This document shows positions 25,213 to 40,049 of a stretch of DNA of 64,000 nt, in pieces; the stretch's first letter is position 1, and each line of letters begins with the position of its first letter. The position numbers and the translations under genes are program-made. The notes under the pieces were generated by a model, which was given only the letters and a program-made list of their open reading frames with translations, was not told the origin of the DNA and searched no databases. Origin of the DNA: Magnetospirillum gryphiswaldense MSR-1 v2 (GTDB lineage: Bacteria > Pseudomonadota > Alphaproteobacteria > Rhodospirillales > Magnetospirillaceae); assembly GCF_000513295.1 (NCBI RefSeq), contig NC_023065.1, forward strand, positions 2,092,501 through 2,156,500, written 5' to 3'.

Positions 25213-28200
25213 TCAGTTGCCCCCCTGCTTGGGTTCCTGGGCCTTTTGCATTTCCATCAGCGCGCGGCGGTAATCCACCGGCATGACCTTGACGAACTTG
25301 GGCATGTGATATTCCCAATTCAGCAGGATGTCGTGAGCCCGCTTGGACCCGGTGTAATGCACATGGTTCTTCAGCATGGCCAGGATGCGATCGGCATCGC
25401 CGCGGGTCATGTCGCCCATGACATCGACCAGCCCATGGGCTTCCAGGTCGTTGCTCATGCCTTCATGCTTTTCCATGGCGTCTTCCTCGGCCTGCACCGG
25501 TTCCAACTCGACCATGGCCAGATTGCAGCGCTTGGCGAAATCGCCGGCCTCGTCCAGCACATAGGCGACACCGCCCGACATGCCGGCGGCGAAGTTGCGC
25601 CCCGTGGGGCCGATGACCAGGACGCAGCCACCGGTCATGTATTCGCAACCATGGTCGCCCACGCCCTCGACCACGGCGATGGCGCCCGAGTTACGGACGG
25701 CGAAGCGTTCGCCGCCGATGCCACGGAAATAGCACTCACCCTCGATGGCGCCGTACAGCACGGTGTTGCCGACGATGATGTTGTCCTCGGCGACGATCTT
25801 CGACACCTTGGGCGGGTAGATGATGATCTTGCCGCCCGACAGGCCCTTGCCGACGTAATCGTTGCCTTCACCTTCCAGTTCCAAAGTCATGCCCTTGGCC
25901 GAGAAGGCGCCGAAGGACTGGCCGGAAGTCCCGGTCAGCTTGACGTGGATGGTATCCTCGGCCAGACCGGCATGGCCCCACTTCTTGGCCACTTCGCCGC
26001 CCAGCATGGCGCCGGCGGTGCGGTCGTAATTGTGGATTTCCGCCTCGATGCGCACCGGCTGCTTGGTGTCGATGGCATTGCGTGCCTTGGCGATCAGCGT
26101 GCGGTCCAGCACATTGTCGATTTCATGGTCCTGGGTCTCGCAATTATAGACCGGCTCGCCCTTGCTATCGACCTTGTGGAACAGTCGGCTGAAATCCAGA
26201 CCGTCGGCCTTCCAATGGTTGATGGCCTTGTTGGTATCCAACAGGTCGGAGCGACCGACCATGTCCTGAATGGTGCGGAAACCCAGCTTGGCCATCCACT
26301 CGCGCACTTCCTCGGCGATGAAGAAGAAGTAGTTGATGACGTGCTCTGGCTGGCCCTTGAAACGCTTCCTGAGATCGGGATCCTGGGTGGCCACGCCCAC
26401 CGGGCAGGTGTTCAGATGGCACTTGCGCATCATGATGCAGCCGGCGGCGATCAGGGGCGCGGTAGCGAAGCCAAATTCATCGGCCCCCAACAACGCACCG
26501 ATGACCACGTCGCGACCGGTCCTGAGCGCACCGTCGACCTGGACGGCGACGCGTTTGCGCAAGCCGTTCAGCACCAGGGTCTGATGGGTTTCGGCCAGAC
26601 CGATTTCCCAGGGCGATCCCGCATGCTTGATGGAGGTCAGCGGCGAGGCGCCGGTACCGCCGTCGAAGCCGGAAATGGTCACATGATCGGCCTTGGCCTT
26701 GGTGACGCCGGCGGCGACGGTGCCCACACCCACTTCCGACACCAACTTGACCGAGATGCGGGCGGCGGGGTTGACGTTCTTCATGTCGAAGATCAGCTGG
26801 GCCAGATCCTCGATGGAATAGATGTCGTGGTGCGGCGGCGGGCTGATCAGGCCGACACCGGGGGTGGAGTGACGCACCTTGGCGATGCTTTCGTCCACCT
26901 TGTGGCCGGGCAACTGGCCGCCTTCACCGGGCTTGGCGCCCTGGGCCATCTTGATCTGGATGTCGTCGGCGTTGACCAGATATTCGGTGGTGACGCCGAA
27001 ACGGCCCGACGCCACCTGCTTGATGGCCGAGCGCATGGAATCGCCATTGGCCATGGGCACGAAGCGTTCGGCCAACTCGCCGCCTTCACCGGTATTGGAC
27101 TTGCCGCCGATACGGTTCATGGCGATAGCCAGGGTGGTATGCGCCTCCCACGAGATCGAGCCGAACGACATGGCGCCGGTAACGAAGCGCTTGACGATTT
27201 CGCTGGCCGGCTCGACCTCGTCCAGCGGAATGCCGTTGCCCGCCGGCTTGATGTCGAACAGACCGCGCAGGGTCAACAGGCGCTGGCTTTGTTCGTCGAT
27301 CTGACGCGAGAAATCCTTGAAGGTCTCGTAGGAATTGGTACGCACGGCGTGTTGCATGGCCTGGATCGATTCCGAGGTCCAGGCGTGATCCTCACCGCGC
27401 GTGCGCCAAGCATATTCGCCGCCCACGTCCAACGCGTTCTTGTAGATGGGGGCATCGGAATAGGCCAGCTGATGCCGGCGCACGGTTTCCTCGGCCACTT
27501 CCTTCAGGCCGACGCCGCCGATACGGCTGGCGGTACCGGCGAAATAGGCATCGACGAAGCCTTGGGCCAGACCGACAGCATCGAAAATCTGGGCGCCGCA
27601 ATAGGATTGATAGGTGGAGATGCCCATCTTGGCCATCACCTTCAAGATGGCCTTGTCGATGCCCTTGATGAAGCGCTTTTGCACTTCATAGGCTTCCAGC
27701 TTTTCCGGCAGGGTCGGACGCATGCTTTCCAGCGTCTCGAAGGCCAGATAGGGGTTGATGGCCTCGGCACCGTAACCGGCCAGACAGCACATATGATGGA
27801 TTTCGCGGGCTTCGCCGGTTTCCATCACCAGACCGACCTGGGTGCGCAGACCCTCGCGGATCAGGTGATGATGCACGGCGGAGATGGCCAGCAGCGACGG
27901 CATGGGCACGCGGTCGGCGCCGACCTTGCGGTCGGACAGGATCAGGATGTTATAGCCGTCGGCCACCTTGCTTTGCGCCAGGGCGCACAGATCGTTGATG
28001 GCTTGTTCCATGCCCGCCGCACCGGTCGCCGCCGCCCAGGTGATGTCGAGCGTCAACGACTTGAAGCCGGAATTGGGCACGTTCTCGATACGGCGGATCT
28101 TTTCCAGATCCTCGTTGGTCAGGATCGGCTGCTTGACCTCCAGCCGCTTGCCTTCGGCGCCATGTTCCATGGCCAGCAGATTGGGGCGCGGGCCGATCAG

Positions 28201-29823
28201 GTTGACCAAGCTCATCACCGATTCCTCGCGGATGGAATCGATGGGCGGATTGGTCACCTGAGCGAACAGCTGCTTGAAATAATTGAACAGATTCTTTGGC
28301 TTGTCCGACAGCACGGCGATGGGGGTGTCGGTGCCCATGGAGCCGATGGCTTCCTGCCCCGTGACCGCCATGGGCTGCATCAGGAACTTCAGATCTTCCT
28401 GGGTATAGCCGAACACCTGCTGACGCTTGAGCAGGGTGGCGCCGTCGAAGCCCTTGGGCTCGACCGCGATCTTCAAATCTTCCAGCACCACCTGGGCTTC
28501 GTCCAGCCATTGCTGGTAGGGCTTGGCCCCGGCCAGTTCGTCCTTGATCTCGGTATCGTCGATCAGGCGGCCCTTTTCCAGGTCGATCAGCAACATCTTG
28601 CCCGGCTGCAAGCGCCACTTCTTGACGATCTTGTCCTCGGCAAACTTCAAGACGCCCATTTCGGACGCCATCATGATCTTGTCGTCTTCGGTGATCAGAT
28701 AGCGGGCCGGACGCAGGCCGTTGCGATCAAGGGTGGCGCCGATCTGGCGGCCATCGGTGAAGCACAGGGCGGCGGGACCATCCCAGGGTTCCATCAGCGC
28801 CGCGTGGTACTCATAGAAGGCACGACGCTTGTCATCCATCAGCGGATTGCCGGACCACGCCTCGGGCACCAGCATCATCATAGCATGGTGCATGGGATAA
28901 CCACCCAAGACCAGCAATTCCAAAGCGTTGTCGAAGCACGCCGTGTCCGACTGGCCTTCGGCGATCAGCGGGAACAGCTTTTCCAAATCGGGGCCGAACA
29001 CCGGGCTGCTCATGGCCTTGCGCCGGGCGTTCATCCAATTGACGTTGCCGCGCAACGTGTTGATCTCGCCATTATGGCTGATCATGCGGAACGGATGGGC
29101 CAGACGCCAGCTGGGGAAGGTGTTGGTGGAAAAGCGCTGGTGCACCAGGGCCAGGGCCGAAACCATGGCCGGATCGGACAGATCCTGGTAATAGGCGCCG
29201 ACCTGATCGGCCAGCAGCATGCCCTTGTAGACCAGGGTGCGCGACGACAGGCTGGGGATGTAGAAATCGCGCTCGGCCCCCGCCGGAATGGCGTTTTCCG
29301 CCTGCTTGCGGATCACGAACAGCTTGCGCTCGAACGCCTGCTGGTCGGCGCAATTGGCGCCCTTGGCGACAAACACCATGCGGACGAAGGGTTCGGTCGG
29401 CTTGACCGTCTCACCCAGGCCGGAACCGTCGGTGGGAACGTCGCGCCAACCCAGCAGAATCTGGCCCTCGGCGTTGATCAGCTTGTCGACCAAACCGACG
29501 CAGGCGGACCGAAGCGCGGCATCCTGGGGCAAGAACACGGTACCGGCGGCATAAGACCCCTCGCTCGGCAGCACGATGCCCAGCTTGGCGGCTTCGGCGC
29601 GCAGGAAGGCATCGGGCATCTGGATCAGAATGCCGGCGCCGTCACCGGCCAACGGATCGGCGCCCACCGCACCGCGATGGGTGAGATTTTTGAGAATCTC
29701 CAGACCCTGCTCGATGATCTCGTGCGACTTGCGGTTCTTGATATCGGCGATAAAGCCGACACCGCAGGCGTCGTGTTCATAACGAGGGTCGTAAAGTCCC
29801 TGCACCTCAGGCAATCCGCTCAT
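25213..29823 (-). CDS. gltB: Glutamate synthase (NADPH) large subunit
   Basis: 1536 residues. The class II glutaminase domain begins at Cys20 ([11 protein letters not shown]), so a 19-residue propeptide must be removed to expose the N-terminal nucleophile. A central domain and the FMN/[3Fe-4S] synthase domain follow ([47 protein letters not shown]), with the C-terminal beta-helix GXGXG region. It is the ammonium-assimilating partner of glutamine synthetase. The ATG at 29823 is preferred because the propeptide then has family-like length; the frame is open to 30003 without support. Confidence 0.97.
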
Positions 29824-30273
29824 CGTACACTCGGTTCCCTTAGGGCCGCCCCCAGCACCATGACGGTACGGTCGGCACAGCCTAATTTCCAATGTTTTCC
29901 CATGGCGCCCGGCAAAGCCGCTGCACCATCCGGCGAAGGGTTTTATCCATCCGTCCGAAGCGAAGCAGACTTCATACGGCATTCCGCCGCGCTCGCCAAG
30001 CATCGCTTGCCCTCGTTTTCCACAACTTGGCGAATCAGTGCATTTTGCCGGCCTCCCCCCGCCCTGTCGGAGGGGTGAGGCCTACCCAACGGAAGGATGT
30101 CCAGCCCTTTTGGAACGCTTCCACGCATACCTCTCAGTCCTGCGATTTTCTTTGACTCACCCGATGAATGTGTTTTCCTGCTTGTGTCCGGTGCGGGGTA
30201 GTTGATCGAAAAGGGTGTCCGCACCGAAAGAGAAGCTATTTTAGACACTTAGCACTTAAACCATTAGGCCCGC
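29824..30273. promoter_or_regulatory. Intergenic region upstream of gltB and the globin-type chemoreceptor
   Basis: This 450-bp divergent gap has no convincing gene. On the gltB strand a GC-rich hairpin (GGCCTC-ACCCC at 30073-30083 with GGGGGG-AGGCC at about 30050-30059) would lie in a long leader and could act as an attenuator. Closer to the chemoreceptor, CGGTGCGG (30189-30196) and CCGCACCG (30219-30226) form a perfect dyad with a 22-bp gap, a possible operator. No clear sigma-70 or sigma-54 promoter is seen. Confidence 0.35.
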
Positions 30274-31713
30274 ATGACCGACGATTTCGAGCTGTTCGAC
30301 GACGCCCCCGCGCCATCCGCCGTTGGTTCCGCCGCCGCCGGGGGCGATCTTTTCTTCGACGACGACGAACCTGGCGCCTCCGACGCCCCCGTCGGCATGA
30401 GCATGACCGAGCGCGTCACTCAGTATCTCGACCTGTTCCAGGTGGATGACGCGGCCCAGCGCCTGATCGCCGACAATTGCGGCAAGGTGGTCGCCTCGGT
30501 CGAAACCATGGTCAACCGGGCTTCCGACTGGGTGCAGCGCACGCCGCCTTTCGGCGAGAAGATGAACAGTGAAGCCGGCGCCACCTTGAAAAGCGCTCTG
30601 GTCGAGCATTGGTCGCGGCTGTACCGGGCCGAGTTCACCGCCGATTACATCGCCACCGCCCAGCAATTGGGCTTCATGCTGGCCTATCTGGATCTGGGGG
30701 CGTCCTGGTATCAGGCCATGGCCGCCAATGCCGCATCGCAAGCCCTGGCCATGCTGCGCGATCAGCGCCATTTCGACACCCTGGCCGGGGTATTGACCCG
30801 AGCCAGCCAGTTGGACGTATCCCTGGTCACCCACGATTATTTCGAGGCGGCCAAGCAGACCCGTTCGCGCATCGTCACCGATCTGGCCCAGGGCTTTGAA
30901 AAGTCCATCAAGGGCGTGGTCGACGAGGTGGGCGCCATGGCGGCGACCTTGAAATCCAATTCGTCGCAGATGCTGCACCGGCTGTCGCACATGGATTACG
31001 AGACGGTCAACATGGCCGCCGCCGCCGAGGAAGCGGCCTTTTCGGTGCAGAACATCTCGGCCAATTCAACAGAACTGGCCGGATCGATCCAGCATATCCT
31101 GGGCAACGTCGTGCGCACGGCGGATGCGGCGGAGCAGGCGGCGATTGCCGCCAACGCCACATCGGAAGCCATGCAGGTGCTGTTGGGGGTGGCGTCACGC
31201 ATCGGGCGCATCGGCGAAACCATCGACAACATCGCCCGCCAAACCCGCATGCTGGCGCTGAACGCCACCATTGAAGCGGCACGCGCCGGTCAGGCCGGTC
31301 GCGGCTTCGCCGTGGTCGCCCAGGAAATCAAGAAACTGTCGGAACAGACCAGCACCGCCACCCACGACATCGCCGCCAGCGTCGCCGAAGCGGTCGATGC
31401 CACCAACGCCGCCGCCGACACCATTCACAACACGGTTTCGGCGGTATCCGGCATCAATCAGGTGGCGGCGGAAGTGCGCGTCGCGGTGGAAGCCCAGACC
31501 CAGGCCACCGCCACCATCGCCGACCATGTGGGCGAGGCTGCGTCGGGAGCCAAGGCGGTGACCACATCGGTCAACAGCGCTATCGAAGCCTTGGGCGTTT
31601 CCGCCTCGGCCGCCGGGGAATTGAACGAAAGCGCCGATGCCCTGGCCATCAAGGCCGATCACATGCGCAGCGAGGTGGATTCCTACCTCGACCGCCTGCG
31701 CGCCCTGGGCTGA
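30274..31713 (+). CDS. Soluble chemoreceptor with degenerate protoglobin-type sensor domain
   Basis: 479 residues, no membrane helices, so cytoplasmic. Residues about 50-210 align with the globin-coupled sensor fold of HemAT/protoglobins ([17 protein letters not shown], then [20 protein letters not shown]). In heme-binding relatives the segment reads IGxxH; here the His position is Leu136, so the proximal heme ligand is missing. The MCP signalling hairpin follows ([33 protein letters not shown]). An acidic N-terminal extension of about 45 residues ([10 protein letters not shown]) precedes the globin. It probably controls taxis through CheA/CheW but may not sense oxygen directly. Confidence 0.88.
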
Positions 31714-31743: not shown

Positions 31744-33339
31744 TTACGCCTTGAGATCGCGGGCCACCGTGGTCATTTCGTCGGCGGTCTTGAACACCGT
31801 GGCGTTGGTGGTATAGGCCTTTTGCGTCACGATCATCTTGGTGAATTCCTGGCCGATATCCACGTTGGACGCTTCCAACGACGACGGCGAGAACCGGGGT
31901 GCGCCCACCGCATTTTCCACCGACGACACCGTGATGTCGCCAGCCTCGCGCGAGCGGCGGAACAGATTGCCGGAAATGGGCTCCAGATTGTTTTCCGCCA
32001 CGAACTGGGCGATGGGCAGCTTGAACAGCGCCCGCGTCTTGCCGTTGGTGAACTGGCCGTACATCTCGCCCCGCTCGTTGAAGCCCGAGCTGATCAGCGT
32101 GCCCGAGCCGTAACCGTCGGTGGCGATGTTGTCGATGTGCAGATCACCATCATACTGGGTCATCCCATCCATATCCAAGGCGACCGTCGCCGTCCCCACC
32201 TCGGTGCCCGAAGTCCACGACAGCGCCAGACTGGCCGGCGAACCGGTGACCATCTTGCCGTCTTCATTGAAGGTCACGTCGATGGGCGTCGGATTGGCCC
32301 CGGTGGTGGCGTTGGAGCCGGGCAGCACATGCATGTACCAGGTGTTGATGCCCGAACGCTCGAACCCCAGCGTCACCGTGTGGGAATTGAAATTGCTGTC
32401 GAAAACCTCGAGGTAGATTTTCTGCATGGGAATCGACGGCTTGGACGAACTGAGATTGACGGTGGTGGCGCTGTCGGCGGTAGCCGCGCCATAGGCGGCG
32501 TCGTCCCAGTTGATGGTCACCGGCTCGGCGGCAAAAGTGGCCGGCGCGGTGATGTTGCCATTGGAATCCATGGTGACGGTCATGGCGGCGCTGGACACCG
32601 CGCCCACCGCCGCCGGTACCGACGGCGTCACCGTCCAGGTGGTGGCGTCCACCCGCGACCAGTTCAAGGTCAGCGTCTGCGAGGCGCCCAGGGGATCGGT
32701 GAAGGTGGAGGTGGAATTGAAATTGCGGGCACTCAGCGTCGCATCGCGGGGGATGTTGGCAAAGACGCTGGCTTCGGTGGTTTCCCGCCCTTCCATGGTG
32801 GTTTCCGGCAGGGTATAGACCGGCGTCAACCCCCCAGCCTCGTCGATGGTTCCGGTATCGTCGGCCATCCAGCCCAGCACATAATTGCCGCCGGCGGTGG
32901 TGAAATATTTTTCCTGATTGGGGCCGGCAACGAAATGGAACGAACCGTCGCGGGTGTAAAGCACGCTGGCCGGATCGTCGACGCTGGCCGAGGTCGGCGC
33001 ATTGGACGATACCGTGGTGCCGGTGGTGGTGGTCGACGGCGGCGCCACCAGCAGGAAACCGCGACCGTTGATGGCCAGATCGGTGTTCCAGTTGGAGCCG
33101 GTGATGGTGCCTTGCTGTTCGATGTGATAGCGGTCGGCGGTCTTGACACCAAAGATATTCAGCTTGCCTGAATGGGTGCTGGGGCCGGCCTTGGATTCCG
33201 ACATCACCGTCTTGAACAGCGTTTCCTTACGCTTGTAGCCGGTGGTGTTGACATTGGAAATGTTTTGGCTGATGGACCCCATGTCCCAGCTTGTCGCCAT
33301 CATCGCCGTACTGGCGTTGTTCATTGCGCCCCAAATCAT
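31744..33339 (-). CDS. flgE: Flagellar hook protein FlgE
   Basis: 531 residues. The N-terminal rod-type motif (SISQNISNVNTTGYKR) and the C-terminal helix (DIGQEFTKMIVTQKAYTTNATVFKTADEM, family-typical; cited in part) identify the FlgE/F/G axial family, and the long Ser/Thr-rich middle with DxDGMTQYDG-like elements is that of hook protein. It is exported by the flagellar type III system and polymerises as the hook. The ATG at 33339 follows AAGGAGG by 7 nt. No other flagellar gene is in the window, so this is an isolated copy. Confidence 0.92.
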   Translation of the reverse strand: MIWGAMNNASTAMMATSWDMGSISQNISNVNTTGYKRKETLFKTVMSESKAGPSTHSGKLNIFGVKTADRYHIEQQGTITGSNWNTDLAINGRGFLLVAPPSTTTTGTTVSSNAPTSASVDDPASVLYTRDGSFHFVAGPNQEKYFTTAGGNYVLGWMADDTGTIDEAGGLTPVYTLPETTMEGRETTEASVFANIPRDATLSARNFNSTSTFTDPLGASQTLTLNWSRVDATTWTVTPSVPAAVGAVSSAAMTVTMDSNGNITAPATFAAEPVTINWDDAAYGAATADSATTVNLSSSKPSIPMQKIYLEVFDSNFNSHTVTLGFERSGINTWYMHVLPGSNATTGANPTPIDVTFNEDGKMVTGSPASLALSWTSGTEVGTATVALDMDGMTQYDGDLHIDNIATDGYGSGTLISSGFNERGEMYGQFTNGKTRALFKLPIAQFVAENNLEPISGNLFRRSREAGDITVSSVENAVGAPRFSPSSLEASNVDIGQEFTKMIVTQKAYTTNATVFKTADEMTTVARDLKA

Positions 33340-33578
33340 TTCCAGCCTCCTTGCCGGATAAAAATATTCCGCCTGATTTGGCTGCATGGTTCGTGCCAGT
33401 TGGTTAAGTCCAGGAATTCCGCCATTTTCGTCTTTCGCACCGCGGCAAAACCTGCCCCCTAAGACAGAAATGACCCGGTCTGACCCGGCAAAGCTTGCCC
33501 AGCCGAAAAAAGCGGCGCCCCCTGCCCGCCGATTGGGCGACACGATCCAAACGGCACGCATTTCCGCGCCTTTGGCCA

Positions 33579-33594
33579 AGGCATGATTATTGCG
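33579..33594 (+). promoter_or_regulatory. Sigma-54-like promoter of the UrtA-like/kinase operon
   Basis: AGGCATG-ATTA-TTGCG has GG at 33580-33581 and GC at 33592-33593 with exact -24/-12 spacing. Transcription would start near 33605, 20 bp before the ATG and just ahead of its Shine-Dalgarno. The match lacks only the leading T, the sixth base and the final W of the consensus. Confidence 0.55.
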
Positions 33595-33625
33595 ACCCGG
33601 CTTGACAGGAACAGGGGGGGGAACG

Positions 33626-34903
33626 ATGCCGGGTTGGGGCCGCAGACGTTATTTCGCCGGGGCTTTCCTGCTGACCGTGGCAGGATGGCTGGCGGCGATC
33701 GCGGTGATCCAGGCCTGGGACGACCGGGCCAGCGGGCGCGGCATCATCAAGGTGGGCATCTTGCATTCGCGTACCGGCACCATGGCGGTGTCGGAACGCA
33801 CCGTCATCGACGCCACCCTTTATGCCATTGATGAAGTGAACAAAGCGGGCGGCGTGCTGGGCCGCCAGATCAAGCCCATCGTCGTCGACGGCAAGTCGGA
33901 CTGGGCGGTGTTCGCCGCCCAGGCAGAAAAGCTGATCACCGTCGACAAGGTCTCGGCGGTGTTCGGCTGCTGGACCTCGGCCTGCCGCAAGACCATCAAA
34001 CCCATCTTCGAGAAACACGATTCGGTGCTGTTTTATCCGGTGCAATACGAGGGGCTGGAGACCTCGCCCAACATCGTCTATACCGGCGCCGCCCCCAACC
34101 AGCAGATCATCCCGGCGATCAAATGGTCCCTGGACAATCTGGGCCGGCGCTTCTTCCTGGTCGGTTCCGATTACGTCTTTCCGCGCACCGCCAACAAGAT
34201 CATCCAGGCCCAGGTCACCGCGCTCAGGGGCGAGGTGGTGGGCGAAGCCTATGCCCCCCTGGGCAGTCAGGATTTCACCGGTATCATCGAGGCGATCAAG
34301 CAAGCCCGGCCCGACGTCGTCTTCAACACCATCAACGGCGATTCCAACCTGGGTTTTCACAAGGCGCTGCGCGGGGCCGGCATCACCCCGGACAGCATCC
34401 CGGTGATGTCGTTCTCGGTGGCCGAGGCCGAGGTCAAGGCCATCGGCCCGGCGGTGATGGCCGGCGATTATGCCGCCCGTAATTACTTCCAGACGGTGGA
34501 CACGCCGGAAAACCATGCCTTCGTCGCCGGGTTCAAGGCCCGCTACGGCACGGATTACGTCACCACCGCCCCGATGGAGGCGGCCTATTTCGGCGTCAAA
34601 TTGTGGGCGCGCGCGGTCAGCGAGGCGGGATCGGCGGATTTCCGCGATTTCCGCGCCACCATCAAGGGGCAAAGCATGGCCTCGCCCGGCGGCACCGTCA
34701 CCATCGACCCGGCGACCCAGCACACCTGGAAAACCGTGCGCATCGGTCGTATCCGCGCCGATGGCGATTTTGAAATCCTGTGGGATTCGCAACGCCCGGT
34801 GCGTCCGGTGCCCTATCCGTCGTTCCTGGCCCGCAGCCAATGGACCGACTTCCTTGACGGTTTGTACCGGGGCTGGGGCAACAACTGGGCGGCACCGCCA
34901 TGA
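33626..34903 (+). CDS. UrtA-like periplasmic binding protein of a sensory module
   Basis: 425 residues. A hydrophobic segment at about 9-29 after RRR is a signal or uncleaved anchor. The body is a type I periplasmic binding fold closely related to UrtA: both share [35 protein letters not shown] and INGDSN/INGDAN, the last region being near the ligand cleft in this family. Urea or a short amide is therefore the likely ligand. Its stop overlaps the start of a hybrid kinase and no permease accompanies it, so it is probably a sensor input rather than a transporter component. AGGGGGGGG precedes the ATG at 33626. Confidence 0.88.
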
Positions 34904-37578
34904 CCCCCATCCCCCGCCCCCGTCTTGCCGTTGAGATCGCCGGCGGCTACCTGCTGTTGGGATTGCTGCCGCTGGTGGTCATCGTCTGGATGTATTTCCA
35001 TGCCTCCGAACGGGTGCTGATCGAGGAAATCAGCCGCTCGCTGTCGACCATCGCCGACCAGAAGACGGCGCGGATCGAGGCCTTCGCCCGCGACCGCATG
35101 CAGATGGCACAGACATTGTCCTATACGCCCACCGTGCGCGACGCCCTGTTCGCTTTGCCGCGCGGCGCCGATGACGGCGCTTTTCGTCCGCTTTTGGCCC
35201 GCTACGGCGAAAGCGCCGGCGCCCGCGACCTGCTGCTGGTATCGGCGGAAGGCGAAATCCTGTTCGCGCTCAACCGCGCCGGTCTGGTCGGCACGGTGCT
35301 GACCGGCACGGCACAGCGCGGCAGCCTGCTGGCCAATATCTTCGAGCGTACCCGCACGCTGTTGGAGACCGAGATTTCCGATTTCGCCGGCGGTGCCGAT
35401 TCCACCTCGTTCGCCGCTGCGCCGGTGTTGAAGGATGGCGGCCTGTTGGGCATCGTGCTGCTGGAAGTGGACCACACCGCGTTGTTCGACATCGTCGCCG
35501 ACACCGCTGCCCTGGGCCGCACTGGCGAAACCATCGTCGCCGCCCGCGCCGGCCCCGGCATGATGGACATCCAAGGGCCGTTGCGGTTGGCCGCCAATAT
35601 GGGCTTCCCCCGCCGCATCGCCGCCACCGATCCCATAGGCATCCCGCTTGATCGCGCCTTGCACGGCGAACGCGGCGTCGATTTCGCCACCGATTACCGG
35701 GGCGAGACGGTGCTGGCCGCCTGGCGCTATCTGCCCAGCTTCCGCTGGGGCATGGTGGTCAAGATCGACGTGTCGGAAACCCTGGCCAGCGTCGAACGCC
35801 TGCGCGCTCTGGGCTGGTGGATCGGCTCCGCCGCCGTCTTGTTCGGGCTGCTGGCCGCCATCTTCATCGCCCGCGCCATCGCCGCCCCCTTGAAGGACCT
35901 GCAACAGGCGACGGAAGCGCTATCGCAGGGCACCTTCCAGCCGCCGCTCGCGGTGGACGGCAGCGTCGAGATCGCCGATCTGGCCCATTCCTTCAACCAC
36001 ATGGCGCGCGAGATTCAAAGCTATCATCACGGCCTGGAACGCATGGTCGAGGACCGCACCAAGGAATTGCGCGCGGCCAAGGATACGGCGGAAGCGGCCA
36101 CCCGGGCCAAGACCGATTTCCTGGCGGTGATGAGCCACGAATTACGCACCCCCATGAACGGCATCATCGGCATGGCCGAATTGCTACGCCGCCGGCTGGA
36201 AAACGACGGCGAAGCCCAGCGTTGGGCCGGCACCATCAAGCAATCGGGGGAAACCCTGACGGTGCTGCTCAACGACATCCTGGATATCTCGCGCATCGAA
36301 GGCGGCCACCTGACCTTCGAGCGCCGCGCCTTCGCCCCACTGCGGCTGGCCGAGGATCTGGTGGCGCTGATGCGGCTGCCGGCGGCGGATAAGGGCTTAA
36401 GCCTGCGCCTCGACGCCGCCCCCGACCTCCCGGACCTGGCGCTGGCCGACCCGGCACGGCTGCGCCAGGTGCTGCTGAACCTGTTGGGTAACGCCATCAA
36501 GTTCACCGATCACGGCGACATCGTGCTGTCGCTCGCCATGTCCACCCCCCATTCGCTGCGCTTCAGCGTCGCCGATACCGGCATAGGCGTCGCCGCCGCC
36601 GACCGCGACCGCCTGTTCGAGCCGTTCTTCCAGGCCGATTCGTCGGCATCGCGCCGCCATGGCGGCGCCGGGCTGGGGCTGGCCATCTGTAAGCGCCTGC
36701 TCGACGGCATGGGCGGGGCCATCAGCTATGAGGCCCGTCCCGGCGGCGGCTCGCTGCTGGTGGTCGATCTGCCTTTTACCGCTGCCACCGACACCCCCGA
36801 GGATGACGACGAGTCCATCCCCGCCTTGCCGCCGTTGAGGGTGCTGGTGATCGAGGACGAAGAGGTCAACGCCCAGGTGTTGACCGCCCTGCTGGTCCAG
36901 GCCGGCCACACGGTCAGTCTGGCCCGCGACGGCGCCGAAGCCCTGGCCCTGGCCGGCCATGACGATTTCGACGCTGTGTTGGTGGATTTGCGCCTGCCCG
37001 GCATGGACGGCTTTCAGGTCACCCGCCGCCTGCATGCGCTGCTGGCGGAACGCGGCGCCCATGTGCCGGTCATCGCCGTCACCGCCAATCTGATGCCCGA
37101 GGACCATTCCGCCTGCGCCGCCGCCGGCATGGTGGCGGTGGTGCCCAAACCCATCGACCCACCCCGCCTGCACGCGGCCCTGGCCATCACCCAGGACCCC
37201 AGCCGGGCCATGCCCATGGCGACACCGTCCACCGGCATTCTTGATATCCGCTTACTGGAGCAACTGGCCGAGGATTTGGGCGCCGACCATCTGCGGTCGT
37301 TGACCCTCAACGCCCTTGATGTCATGGCCGAACGCTTGCGTCTGCTGTCCGAGGAACAGGATTTGGCGCAAATCGCCGATCTGGCCCACAAACTGGCCGG
37401 CGCCGCCGGCAGTCACGGCTTGGCGGCGGCACGGTTGCAGGCCAAGGATCTGGAATATAACGCCCGCAACGGCGATGGCCCCGCCTGTCGCGCTGTCTTG
37501 GCCCAATTGCAGGCGGACTTCGCCCAAGGCCGTACCGCCTTGTTGCGATGGTTGGAAGACGCCGGCATGGGCGGATAG
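34900..37578 (+). CDS. Tripartite hybrid sensor histidine kinase (TorS-like architecture)
   Basis: 892 residues. TM1 (about 12-32) and TM2 (about 303-325) enclose a large periplasmic sensor of Cache type, followed by HAMP (about 326-380) and a coiled coil. HisKA has His413 in [11 protein letters not shown]; the ATPase domain has NAIKFTD, DTGIGV and [11 protein letters not shown] receiver domain carries Asp696 in [11 protein letters not shown] and an HPt domain carries His830 in [11 protein letters not shown]. The full phosphorelay chain can hand phosphate to a separate regulator, most simply the convergent OmpR-type one. It overlaps the UrtA-like gene by 4 nt, implying the binding protein modulates the kinase, as TorT does TorS. 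Confidence 0.93.
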
Positions 37579-37583
37579 AACGC

Positions 37584-38285
37584 CTATCCCCGGCTGACCG
37601 CGGGAACGAAGCGATAGCCATGGCCGCGGCAGGTTTCGATCAGACCATCCTCGCCGCCCAGTTTCTTGCGCAGGCGGCTGATCAGGATATCGATGCTGCG
37701 CGGCCCCGATTCGGCGTCGTCGGACCCCAGGGCGACCATCAGCGCGTCGCGGCTTTGAATGCGGCCGGCGCGGCTGACCAGAATATGCAGCAGATCGAAT
37801 TCGGCCGGCGTCAGATCGGCGGCGCGGCCCAAGGTGTCGAGTACGGCCCGCGCCGTCAGGTCCATGCACCAGCCGGCGAAACGCAAGCGGTTGGCTGTGC
37901 CCGCCCCGCGCAAACCGGCACGGCGGTCCAGCACGCTTTTCACCCGCGCCAGCAATTCACGCGGATAGACCGGCTTGGCCAGATAATCGTCGGCGCCGGT
38001 TTCAATGCCCAACGCCCGGTCGTCGGGGCCGCCGCGTTCGGTCACCATGATCACGGCCACATCGGAATGCGCGCGCAGGTCGCGGGTCAGGCTGATGCCG
38101 TCGCCGTCAGGCAGGTTGACGTCCAGCAGCACCAGATCGATCTGGCCGGTGGCCAGCCAAGCGCGCATACCCGCCGCGTCCTCGGCCTGCTCGACCCGAT
38201 AGCCGGCCTTGGCCGCCGACGCCGCGATCAGGGCGCGGACGGTTTCGTCATCGTCGACCACCAGAATGCTGGATTTGACGCTCAT
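37584..38285 (-). CDS. OmpR-family response regulator
   Basis: 233 residues. The receiver domain shows the acidic pocket DDDE, phospho-acceptor Asp55 in LVLLDVNLPDGDG, Thr in VIMVTERG and Lys in DYLAKPVYPREL. The C-terminal winged helix (LTPAEFDLLHILVSRAG, IDILISRLRKKLG, GHGYRFVP) binds DNA. The ATG at 38285 has AAGAGG upstream. It is convergent with the hybrid kinase with 5 bp between them and divergent from urtA, so the shared 489-bp region could be its target. It is probably the kinase's partner; its promoter lies in the AT-rich region. Confidence 0.93.
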   Translation of the reverse strand: MSVKSSILVVDDDETVRALIAASAAKAGYRVEQAEDAAGMRAWLATGQIDLVLLDVNLPDGDGISLTRDLRAHSDVAVIMVTERGGPDDRALGIETGADDYLAKPVYPRELLARVKSVLDRRAGLRGAGTANRLRFAGWCMDLTARAVLDTLGRAADLTPAEFDLLHILVSRAGRIQSRDALMVALGSDDAESGPRSIDILISRLRKKLGGEDGLIETCRGHGYRFVPAVSRG

Positions 38286-38644
38286 GCCGCCTCTTTTCTC
38301 GATCCGGGAAAAATACCAGAAACACAAGACCGTTACAGTCCCCTTCGTCACTCATTTGCACACACGGCCTGCGCCTGCAATAATAATTGCACGGCGCCTA
38401 AGTCTTTTGTGAATATGAAGAAACAATCCAGAAATATTGCAAAATAGACTGTGCCGTGATTTTGAGCAGCGCATAACCATATATCATTTGTGGTCAAAAA
38501 ATTTTGAACCCTTGCCAGCCGCCACGTCCACGGAGATTTATAATTTTGCCCACCACCACCAAAATGCATATATTTTAACCATAGTCGTGGATGTGGTTAT
38601 TTTTTAAACACTTACTGCCGCCACCGCCGGCACTTTTTCGCAGA

Positions 38645-38661
38645 TGCACAAATAATTTGCA
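38645..38661 (+). promoter_or_regulatory. NtrC-like binding site upstream of urtA
   Basis: TGCACA-AATAA-TTTGCA agrees with TGCACC-N5-GGTGCA at nine of twelve defined positions. It is embedded in the dyad ATGCA-N9-TGCAT (38644-38662). It is centred about 91 bp before the predicted start of transcription, a workable enhancer position. Confidence 0.5.
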
Positions 38662-38717
38662 TCCCGCCACCACGGTAAAACGTTAAAAATCAATGAGTTA
38701 AATCAAAATATCCAAGT

Positions 38718-38733
38718 TGGCCCGCGCCTTGCC
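38718..38733 (+). promoter_or_regulatory. Sigma-54 promoter of the urt-ure cluster
   Basis: TGGCCCG-CGCC-TTGCC has GG at -24 and GC at -12 with correct 10-bp separation and matches the consensus TGGCACG-N4-TTGCW at all but two positions. Transcription would begin near 38744, 30 bp before the urtA ATG. It is the best sigma-54 match in the window. Confidence 0.75.
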
Positions 38734-38774
38734 TATTCCCTCGGCACCTGCAATCTCGCACGGGGGATATCAGA

Positions 38775-40049
38775 ATGAAGTTCAACCGGATTCTTGGCGC
38801 CGGACTGTTTGCCGCCGCCACCGCCCTGCCCATGCTGGCGCAAGCCGCCGAAGACACCATCAAGGTCGGCGTGCTGCATTCGCTGTCGGGCACCATGGCC
38901 ATTTCCGAAACCACCTTGAAGGACACCGTCCTGATGATGGTGGACGACATCAACAAGAAGGGCGGCCTGCTCGGCAAGAAGGTTGAAGCGGTGGTGGTCG
39001 ACCCGGCCTCCAACTGGCCGCTGTTCGCCGAAAAGGCCCAGGAATTGCTGGAAAAGGAAAAGGTCGCCGCCGTGTTCGGCTGCTGGACCTCGGTTTCGCG
39101 CAAATCGGTGCTGCCGGTGTTCGAGAAGATGAACGGCCTGCTGTTCTACCCGGTGCAATACGAGGGCGAGGAAAGCTCGCGCAACGTCTTCTACACCGGT
39201 GCGGCGCCCAATCAGCAGGCCATCCCCGCCGTCGATTACCTGATGAGCAAGGATGGCGGCGAAGTGAAGCGCTGGGTGCTGGCCGGCACCGATTACGTCT
39301 ATCCGCGCACCACCAACAAGATTTTGGAAGCCTATCTGAAGTCCAAGGGCGTCAAGGCCGAGGACATCATGATCAACTATACCCCGTTCGGGCATAGCGA
39401 TTGGCAGACCATCGTCGCCGACATCAAGAAGTTCGGCACCGCCGGTAAGAAGACCGCCGTGGTCTCCACCATCAACGGCGACGCCAACGTGCCGTTCTAC
39501 AAGGAACTGGCCAATCTGGGCGTCAAGGCCGACCAGATCCCGGTCGTCGCCTTCTCGGTCGGCGAAGAGGAACTGGCCGGTATCGACACCAAGAATCTGG
39601 TCGGCCATCTGGCCGCCTGGAACTACTTCCAGTCGGTCAAGAGCCCGGAAAACGACGCCTTCATCAAGCAGTGGCAGACCTTCATCAAGAGCCCCAAGCG
39701 CGTCACCAACGACCCGATGGAAGCCACCTATATCGGCTTCAAGATGTGGACCCAGGCCGTGCAACAGGCCGGCAGCACCAACGTCGACGCCGTGCGTCAG
39801 GCCATGTACGGCCAGCAGGTCAAGAACCTGACCGGCGGCACCGCCGTGATGAACACCAACCACCACCTGTCCAAGCCGGTGTTCATCGGTGAAATCCAGG
39901 CCAACGGCCAGTTGCAGACCGTGTGGAAGACCAAGGACGTCATCAAGGCCGACGCCTGGAGCCCCTATATCCCGGAAAGCGCCAAGCTGACCGCCAACTG
40001 GACCTATCCGTGGGTGTGCGGCAACTGCACCGAACCCAAGTTCAAGTAA
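38775..40049 (+). CDS. urtA: Urea ABC transporter, periplasmic urea-binding protein
   Basis: 424 residues. A Sec signal peptide (about 1-24, ending MLAQAA) leads into a type I binding-protein fold with the UrtA landmarks [39 protein letters not shown] and INGDANVPFY. It captures urea at low concentration for the UrtBC permease and UrtDE ATPases. It is the first gene of the urt-ure cluster, and a stem-loop follows its stop, which commonly keeps the binding protein in excess over the membrane components. Confidence 0.96.
   Translation: MKFNRILGAGLFAAATALPMLAQAAEDTIKVGVLHSLSGTMAISETTLKDTVLMMVDDINKKGGLLGKKVEAVVVDPASNWPLFAEKAQELLEKEKVAAVFGCWTSVSRKSVLPVFEKMNGLLFYPVQYEGEESSRNVFYTGAAPNQQAIPAVDYLMSKDGGEVKRWVLAGTDYVYPRTTNKILEAYLKSKGVKAEDIMINYTPFGHSDWQTIVADIKKFGTAGKKTAVVSTINGDANVPFYKELANLGVKADQIPVVAFSVGEEELAGIDTKNLVGHLAAWNYFQSVKSPENDAFIKQWQTFIKSPKRVTNDPMEATYIGFKMWTQAVQQAGSTNVDAVRQAMYGQQVKNLTGGTAVMNTNHHLSKPVFIGEIQANGQLQTVWKTKDVIKADAWSPYIPESAKLTANWTYPWVCGNCTEPKFK

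Follow-up and report, generated by a model that had tools for sequence, protein, structure and literature searches.

A cytoplasmic chemoreceptor of Magnetospirillum gryphiswaldense with a His-less, probably heme-free protoglobin sensor

The gene at positions 30274-31713 of the window (the whole 64,000-nucleotide stretch of Magnetospirillum gryphiswaldense MSR-1 DNA analysed here) encodes a soluble methyl-accepting chemotaxis protein (MCP) whose protoglobin sensor domain carries leucine at F8, the proximal heme-ligand position. Judged from sequence comparison and a predicted structure, the receptor is quite probably a non-heme globin sensor that recognizes a new ligand or partner at a remodelled F helix, and its trigger is probably something other than oxygen. 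The coordinates given for this open reading frame in an earlier, sequence-only reading are exact. The features discussed below are as follows.

25213..30003, - strand: gltB, glutamate synthase large subunit, the divergent neighbour (named from the sequence and the sequence-only reading)
30274..31713, + strand: cytoplasmic methyl-accepting chemotaxis protein with a His-less protoglobin sensor (L family), 479 aa (open reading frame, Pfam)
30274..30393, + strand: acidic N-terminal tail, M(S/T)DDFELFDD...DLFFDDD (ortholog alignment, predicted disorder)
30409..30855, + strand: protoglobin domain, aa 46-194 (Pfam PF11563, structure prediction)
30520..30525, + strand: Ala83-Ser84, occupying distal positions B9-B10, where the His-bearing group mostly has Phe-Tyr (alignment)
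30607..30609, + strand: His112 of helix E, the leading candidate for a replacement heme ligand (alignment)
30634..30720, + strand: near-invariant E-F-G segment, aa 121-149 (conservation, dN/dS)
30679..30681, + strand: codon of Leu136, which takes the proximal heme-ligand place, F8 (alignment)
31126..31581, + strand: MCP signalling domain, aa 285-436, gapless against the His-bearing paralog (Pfam)

Both halves of the protein are recognized clearly. The sensor had been assigned to the protoglobin/HemAT type, and PF11563 matches it at 85.5 bits against a curated cut-off of 25, over profile positions 3-157 of 158; the receptor belongs to the Pfam Protoglobin family with the whole domain covered. 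The MCPsignal match reaches 89.6 bits (cut-off 34.6), and the signalling domain has the conserved MCP hairpin with QTR, which is kept in the L family.

Structure prediction gives the same picture of the sensor. An AlphaFold model of this domain, built as a monomer from 12 sequences, has a pLDDT of 90.5 and a pTM of 0.85, and its fold is that of a globin. The first 27 Foldseek rows are all globin-coupled sensors or protoglobins, two of them at E 0.001 or better. Against solved globin-coupled sensors the predicted model scores VIA Z of about 14.5-17, with Z 17.3 for 8h17 (rmsd 2.5, 153 aligned), Z 16.6 for HemAT 1or4 (rmsd 2.4, 146 aligned) and Z 16.0 for AfGcHK. RsbR 2bnl follows at Z 12.7 (rmsd 2.8, 128 aligned), a range in which helical folds may match by arrangement alone. 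Sequence searches of solved structures reach less far: the single sequence gives a best E of 0.12 and the family profile 0.00034, both to 7o0i, an anti-anti-sigma factor with a globin-like N-terminal region. With the His-bearing paralog as query, 2w31 comes up at 4.3e-10 and HemAT at 1.7e-6.

The acidic tail is kept in most orthologs; it is absent from the partial L043, and its second half is missing in L076. Residues 1-40 have a pLDDT of about 30-34 in a full-length model that is itself poor (mean 60.6). Docking of the tail on the globin domain finds no support there (about 33 over the same residues), and a broader role for the tail motif was dropped, the one match in the genome being the receptor gene itself.

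The central observation is the residue at F8. PF11563 matches from 61 genomes of the order were aligned, and removal of duplicates and of six partial rows (shorter than 110 aa) left 96 distinct protoglobin domains. The removed rows read His at F8 in L085, L066, L072 and L071 and Leu in L076, and the sixth, a second piece of L085, has no letter there. Among the 96 domains F8 is His in 68, Leu in 15, Arg in 11 and Tyr in two. Leu136 of the receptor falls in this column when aligned with its relatives, as the sequence-only reading had it; the His-bearing paralog (L001) reads IGQIHQRIGLEPRWYTAGY where the receptor carries its Leu136 segment. Groups named by their F8 letter cannot test F8, and orthologs found without the motif can. 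With a whole-domain family profile, F8 is Leu, within the motif QQLGFML, in 24/24 ortholog genomes above 130 bits, and Leu recurs in all 12 separately gathered ortholog loci.

Identity to solved globin sensors is just about 9-16% in the structural matches, which might suggest that the alignment has slipped and that the true F8 residue lies elsewhere. This is highly improbable. The column is anchored by G133, L141, W145 and Y146, matched in the His group by G in 65, L in 57, W in 55 and Y in 63 of 68 domains; profile and MAFFT alignments concur; and the receptor has no His at all between aa 113 and 165. Retention of the WY motif, already noticed from the letters, extends through the family (W145 and Y146 in 23/23 L-family rows).

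The distal side of the pocket has changed as well. The B10 Tyr, present in 66/68 domains of the His group, occurs in 0/23 of the L family, and the receptor has Ser84 there; at B9, Phe in 63/68 of the His group is replaced by Ala, Ser or Cys. With F8 and B9/B10 all replaced, the usual heme pocket is altered on its proximal and its distal side. The loss of the B10 Tyr and the fixation of the F8 Leu across the orthologs go beyond the sequence-only reading. Of the features that define a HemAT-type sensor, the receptor thus has the globin fold in its predicted model and lacks the F8 His and the B10 Tyr, and a globin fold, here predicted, from which the heme-coordinating residues have gone is one trait of a non-heme globin sensor. 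That reading had also proposed a heme-free globin; its globin-fold and His-less part is borne out by the sequence and the predicted fold, by the tree and by fixation throughout the family, and heme absence itself is what these would imply.

One objection is that heme might still be bound through another ligand, leaving an oxygen or redox sensor. Met135, the invariant His112 and several Tyr could in principle serve, to go by the sequence, and His112 of helix E is the foremost of them, being present in 23/23 L-family rows. A precedent exists in HGbRL, a putative globin-coupled sensor described as having swapped sites, unusual heme coordination and fused helices E and F (PMC4476040). His112 is, however, about as conserved in the His group (62/68) and the Arg group (11/11), and so did not arise in compensation; the distal residues have been lost as well, in a region (aa 52-90) that is the family's least conserved; and helices E and F are predicted to be separate in the receptor, unlike those of HGbRL. 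Retained heme binding is therefore rather unlikely.

The Leu-bearing proteins form a family of their own. In a tree of the 96 domains the L rows make a single long-stemmed clade (support 100/99), and the R and Y rows each form a separate one (99/96 and 100/99); L046 is placed, tentatively, beside the L clade, the columns being few and L046 itself a long branch. The L-family profile scores above 130 bits in 24 of 317 genomes of the order, and the best other protein reaches 46 bits; two members are fragmented, their second pieces scoring 57 and 32 bits. Across these 317 genomes the members are confined to the window's GTDB family, where they span seven genera. Among 385 sampled genomes of the class, the window's own protein is the sole member, with no close relatives and the next best profile match at 44 bits. 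Within the genus the family is found in 11/13 genomes. A His-bearing ortholog co-occurs in 16/16 member genomes among the 61 sampled; the remaining eight members are in another genus. A search for relatives on plasmids gave nothing further, since only the MCP signalling part aligned among the matches listed (20 of 846 records).

Such a distribution bears on whether the gene is simply a decaying HemAT copy on its way to being lost. Its heme ligand is gone, it was not found in 2/13 same-genus genomes, and the receptor frame is broken in one of the 12 ortholog loci (L043:4001-4482, from a MAG), a break that is likely an assembly or read error. Set against this are fixation across seven genera, mostly intact frames, a conserved signalling hairpin, a near-invariant core and a dN/dS of 0.11-0.34 over aa 52-191 against five orthologs, well below 1. 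Frames, dN/dS and core together strongly disfavour decay, which is barely credible.

Conservation within the domain has a distinct pattern. For this comparison, 23 L rows were set against 21 orthologs of the His-bearing paralog, with 15 genomes in common; the alignment (A1) omits L043 for its broken frame, and a further one (A3) holds the window and 9 of the 12 ortholog loci. Over the whole domain the L family is the more variable (mean identity 63.0% vs 71.5%), and aa 52-90, which include helix B, average 44% vs 62%. The order is reversed in aa 121-149, where identity is 94.3% vs 85.5% and invariant columns number 24/29 vs 14/29. Within aa 126-139 the invariant columns are 12/14 vs 6/14, and aa 127-138 are all invariant in the L family. 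Positions 124, 128, 131, 134 and 135, invariant here and variable in the His-bearing set, are plausibly outward-facing. In aa 121-149 dN is zero in four ortholog comparisons and 0.015 in one. Low synonymous divergence against the same five orthologs hinted at extra nucleotide-level constraint on codons 121-149; the codon identity of 0.71 at amino-acid-identical sites is equalled or beaten by 34/432 windows along the protein, and the idea was dropped.

This concentration of conservation is the main reason for placing a ligand or partner site on helix F, and the sequence pattern suggests that a functional site probably lies within aa 121-149. The proposal of a new ligand or a protein-interaction role thereby gains support, though only indirectly, in that conservation has moved to the region of helix F. 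The conserved F helix could also reflect a different heme-binding mode.

A possible mechanism can be outlined. With the proximal His and distal Tyr replaced family-wide and the predicted fold intact, the protoglobin domain would be a non-heme globin. Its trigger would be a ligand other than a gas, lodged in the emptied pocket, or else a partner protein at the F-helix face, and not O2 on heme. A conformational change of the globin would then pass through the H-helix to the MCP coiled coil and on to CheW/CheA. Heme-based O2 sensing would be left to the co-occurring His-bearing paralog.

Known globin-coupled sensors are dimeric, as the receptor's globin would be too, and their dimers form mainly via the G and H helices. 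The domain could alternatively be a heme-free globin that lacks its own ligand and serves for dimerisation, structure or team signalling, tuning the receptor array in this way. A role of this kind has been suggested for MCP514 (Atu0514) of Agrobacterium, a globin MCP that lacks conserved globin residues (PMC10851874); its gene lies in the che operon, and without it responses to four unrelated chemical types were affected (PMC8466855). The invariant F segment (aa 127-138) exceeds what dimerisation alone would be expected to need, and this alternative is unlikely, if the most serious one. It shares the heme-free premise with the ligand- or partner-sensing account, so the two overlap in probability.

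Several known systems help to place the receptor. HemAT of Bacillus subtilis (PDB 1or4/1or6) is likewise soluble, joins a globin sensor to an MCP signalling domain and shares its fold with the receptor's predicted model; the difference lies in the proximal His123 and distal Tyr70 reported there (PMC13401364), which correspond to Leu136 and Ser84. Globin folds without heme-binding residues are also known in signalling proteins. Gram-positive RsbR proteins have neither the proximal His nor the distal Tyr, and a non-heme globin domain of B. anthracis has been crystallised together with a fatty acid (PMC4976288). MabR is described as a sensor of the non-heme globin kind and set beside RsbR and pXO1-118 (PMC11617747). 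Sensors of this RsbR/MabR type (2bnl, 3pmd) differ from the receptor in that their output is not an MCP and their structural match to its model is weaker. A further system is Atu0514/MCP514, a cytoplasmic MCP whose protoglobin domain is missing conserved globin residues; it differs in its che operon, HAMP domain and 36H class, the comparison being one of published description rather than alignment. In Atu1027, replacement of the heme His abolished the aerotaxis function (PMC10851874). Rhizobial globin-coupled sensors with F8 Glu in 21 sequences are His-less too, with Glu instead of Leu, and the authors warned of an alignment artefact (PMC4648194). With RsbR, pXO1-118, MabR and Atu0514 already known, the receptor is less novel than had been implied. 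In the open-licence literature, no paper was found that notes this receptor's missing His or that measures heme in any globin MCP of the His-less type.

The receptor has very likely been named before. M. gryphiswaldense MSR-1 is reported to have 54-56 MCP genes, including two protoglobin MCPs named HemAT1/2; as putative receptors for aerotaxis or energy taxis, both were deleted (PMC12442639). The domain search of the MSR-1 contig returns two protoglobin and 54 MCP-domain matches, and because these counts fit, the gene at 30274-31713 is very likely hemAT1 or hemAT2. Deletion of hemAT2 reduced spreading in soft agar, and the available portion of that paper tells of no other hemAT-specific phenotype (PMC12442639). 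The matter is of some weight, as M. gryphiswaldense is a model magnetotactic bacterium and the receptor is grouped there under HemAT names. Should one HemAT be unable to bind heme in the known manner, another account of its role would be needed, and deletion mutants already exist.

The proposed family search for other His-less members was carried out and, besides the L, R and Y groups, uncovered further cases across Alphaproteobacteria. The class survey covered 80 of 95 matches outside two genomes already read, the 15 highest-scoring being left out; the column richest in His served as F8, and MCPs were assigned by the hairpin motif. F8 is His in 69/80 and another residue in 11/80 (Phe in five; Arg, Gln, Tyr, Ile, Leu and Asp in one each). 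Among domains with the MCP hairpin motif, 40 are His and nine non-His. A quick, weakly supported tree of 87 rows requires seven switches between His and other residues; its 56 His rows are a random draw, and L081, L046, L189 and class rows shorter than 130 aa are excluded. An earlier globin census demanded His at F8 (PMC1457004) and would have filtered out His-less families. Given this filter and the 11/80 alphaproteobacterial domains without F8 His, non-heme globin chemoreceptors may be a recurrent, little-studied class.

Other groups deserve separate mention. The Arg-at-F8 clade, from the same bacterial family, comprises L091, L052-L055, L057, L060, L062, L068, L070 and L077; the seven of these 11 proteins that were scanned are all protoglobin-MCPs, and B10 is Tyr in five, Phe in four and Leu in two. 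Five MCPs from other alphaproteobacterial families (L217, L218, L219, L222, L223) share (S/A)A(F/L)YDxGVPxYAV and have F8 occupied by Phe or Leu. Tyr stands at F8 in L048, L051 and L215 and could be a heme ligand there. L048 and L051, the two Y-group proteins, were both scanned and are protoglobin-STAS fusions (RsbR-like).

The genomic neighbourhood is partly conserved. As first described, gltB is divergent from the receptor, lying upstream on the - strand; its true start is probably near 29823, by inference. Using only the window's own genes as queries, gltB was found upstream, divergent and within about 1 kb of the receptor in 18/24 member genomes. In L037, a 19th genome, the two are separated by a kinase gene, and gltB was not found in the fetched stretch of L038, L039, L145, L146 and L148. 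Because gltB is the usual neighbour, a bolder version of the heme-free account can be imagined: a chemoreceptor clade of magnetospirilla and relatives whose old heme helix docks a nitrogen-assimilation metabolite or protein, an internal-state sensor mistaken for an oxygen receptor. This is a long shot; the linkage lends a nitrogen connection weak support and may be plain inheritance of gene order.

The region between the two genes has a feature of its own. On the gltB strand, upstream of gltB, positions 29940-29990 of the window form a stretch that is also conserved at six orthologous loci and has a start codon and then Lys; this stretch could be a gltB leader peptide or a regulatory element. 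No Rfam match (E up to 1) indicated an RNA element over 29600-30400. Downstream, and convergent with the receptor, positions 31744-33579 hold a gene of flagellar hook type with FlgE domains; among the ortholog loci, several of which end early, this FlgE-like gene was found only in L035, L036 and L040. Beyond it, at 33590-40049, two Peripla_BP_5 binding proteins flank a HAMP hybrid histidine kinase with a dCache-like match just below cut-off.
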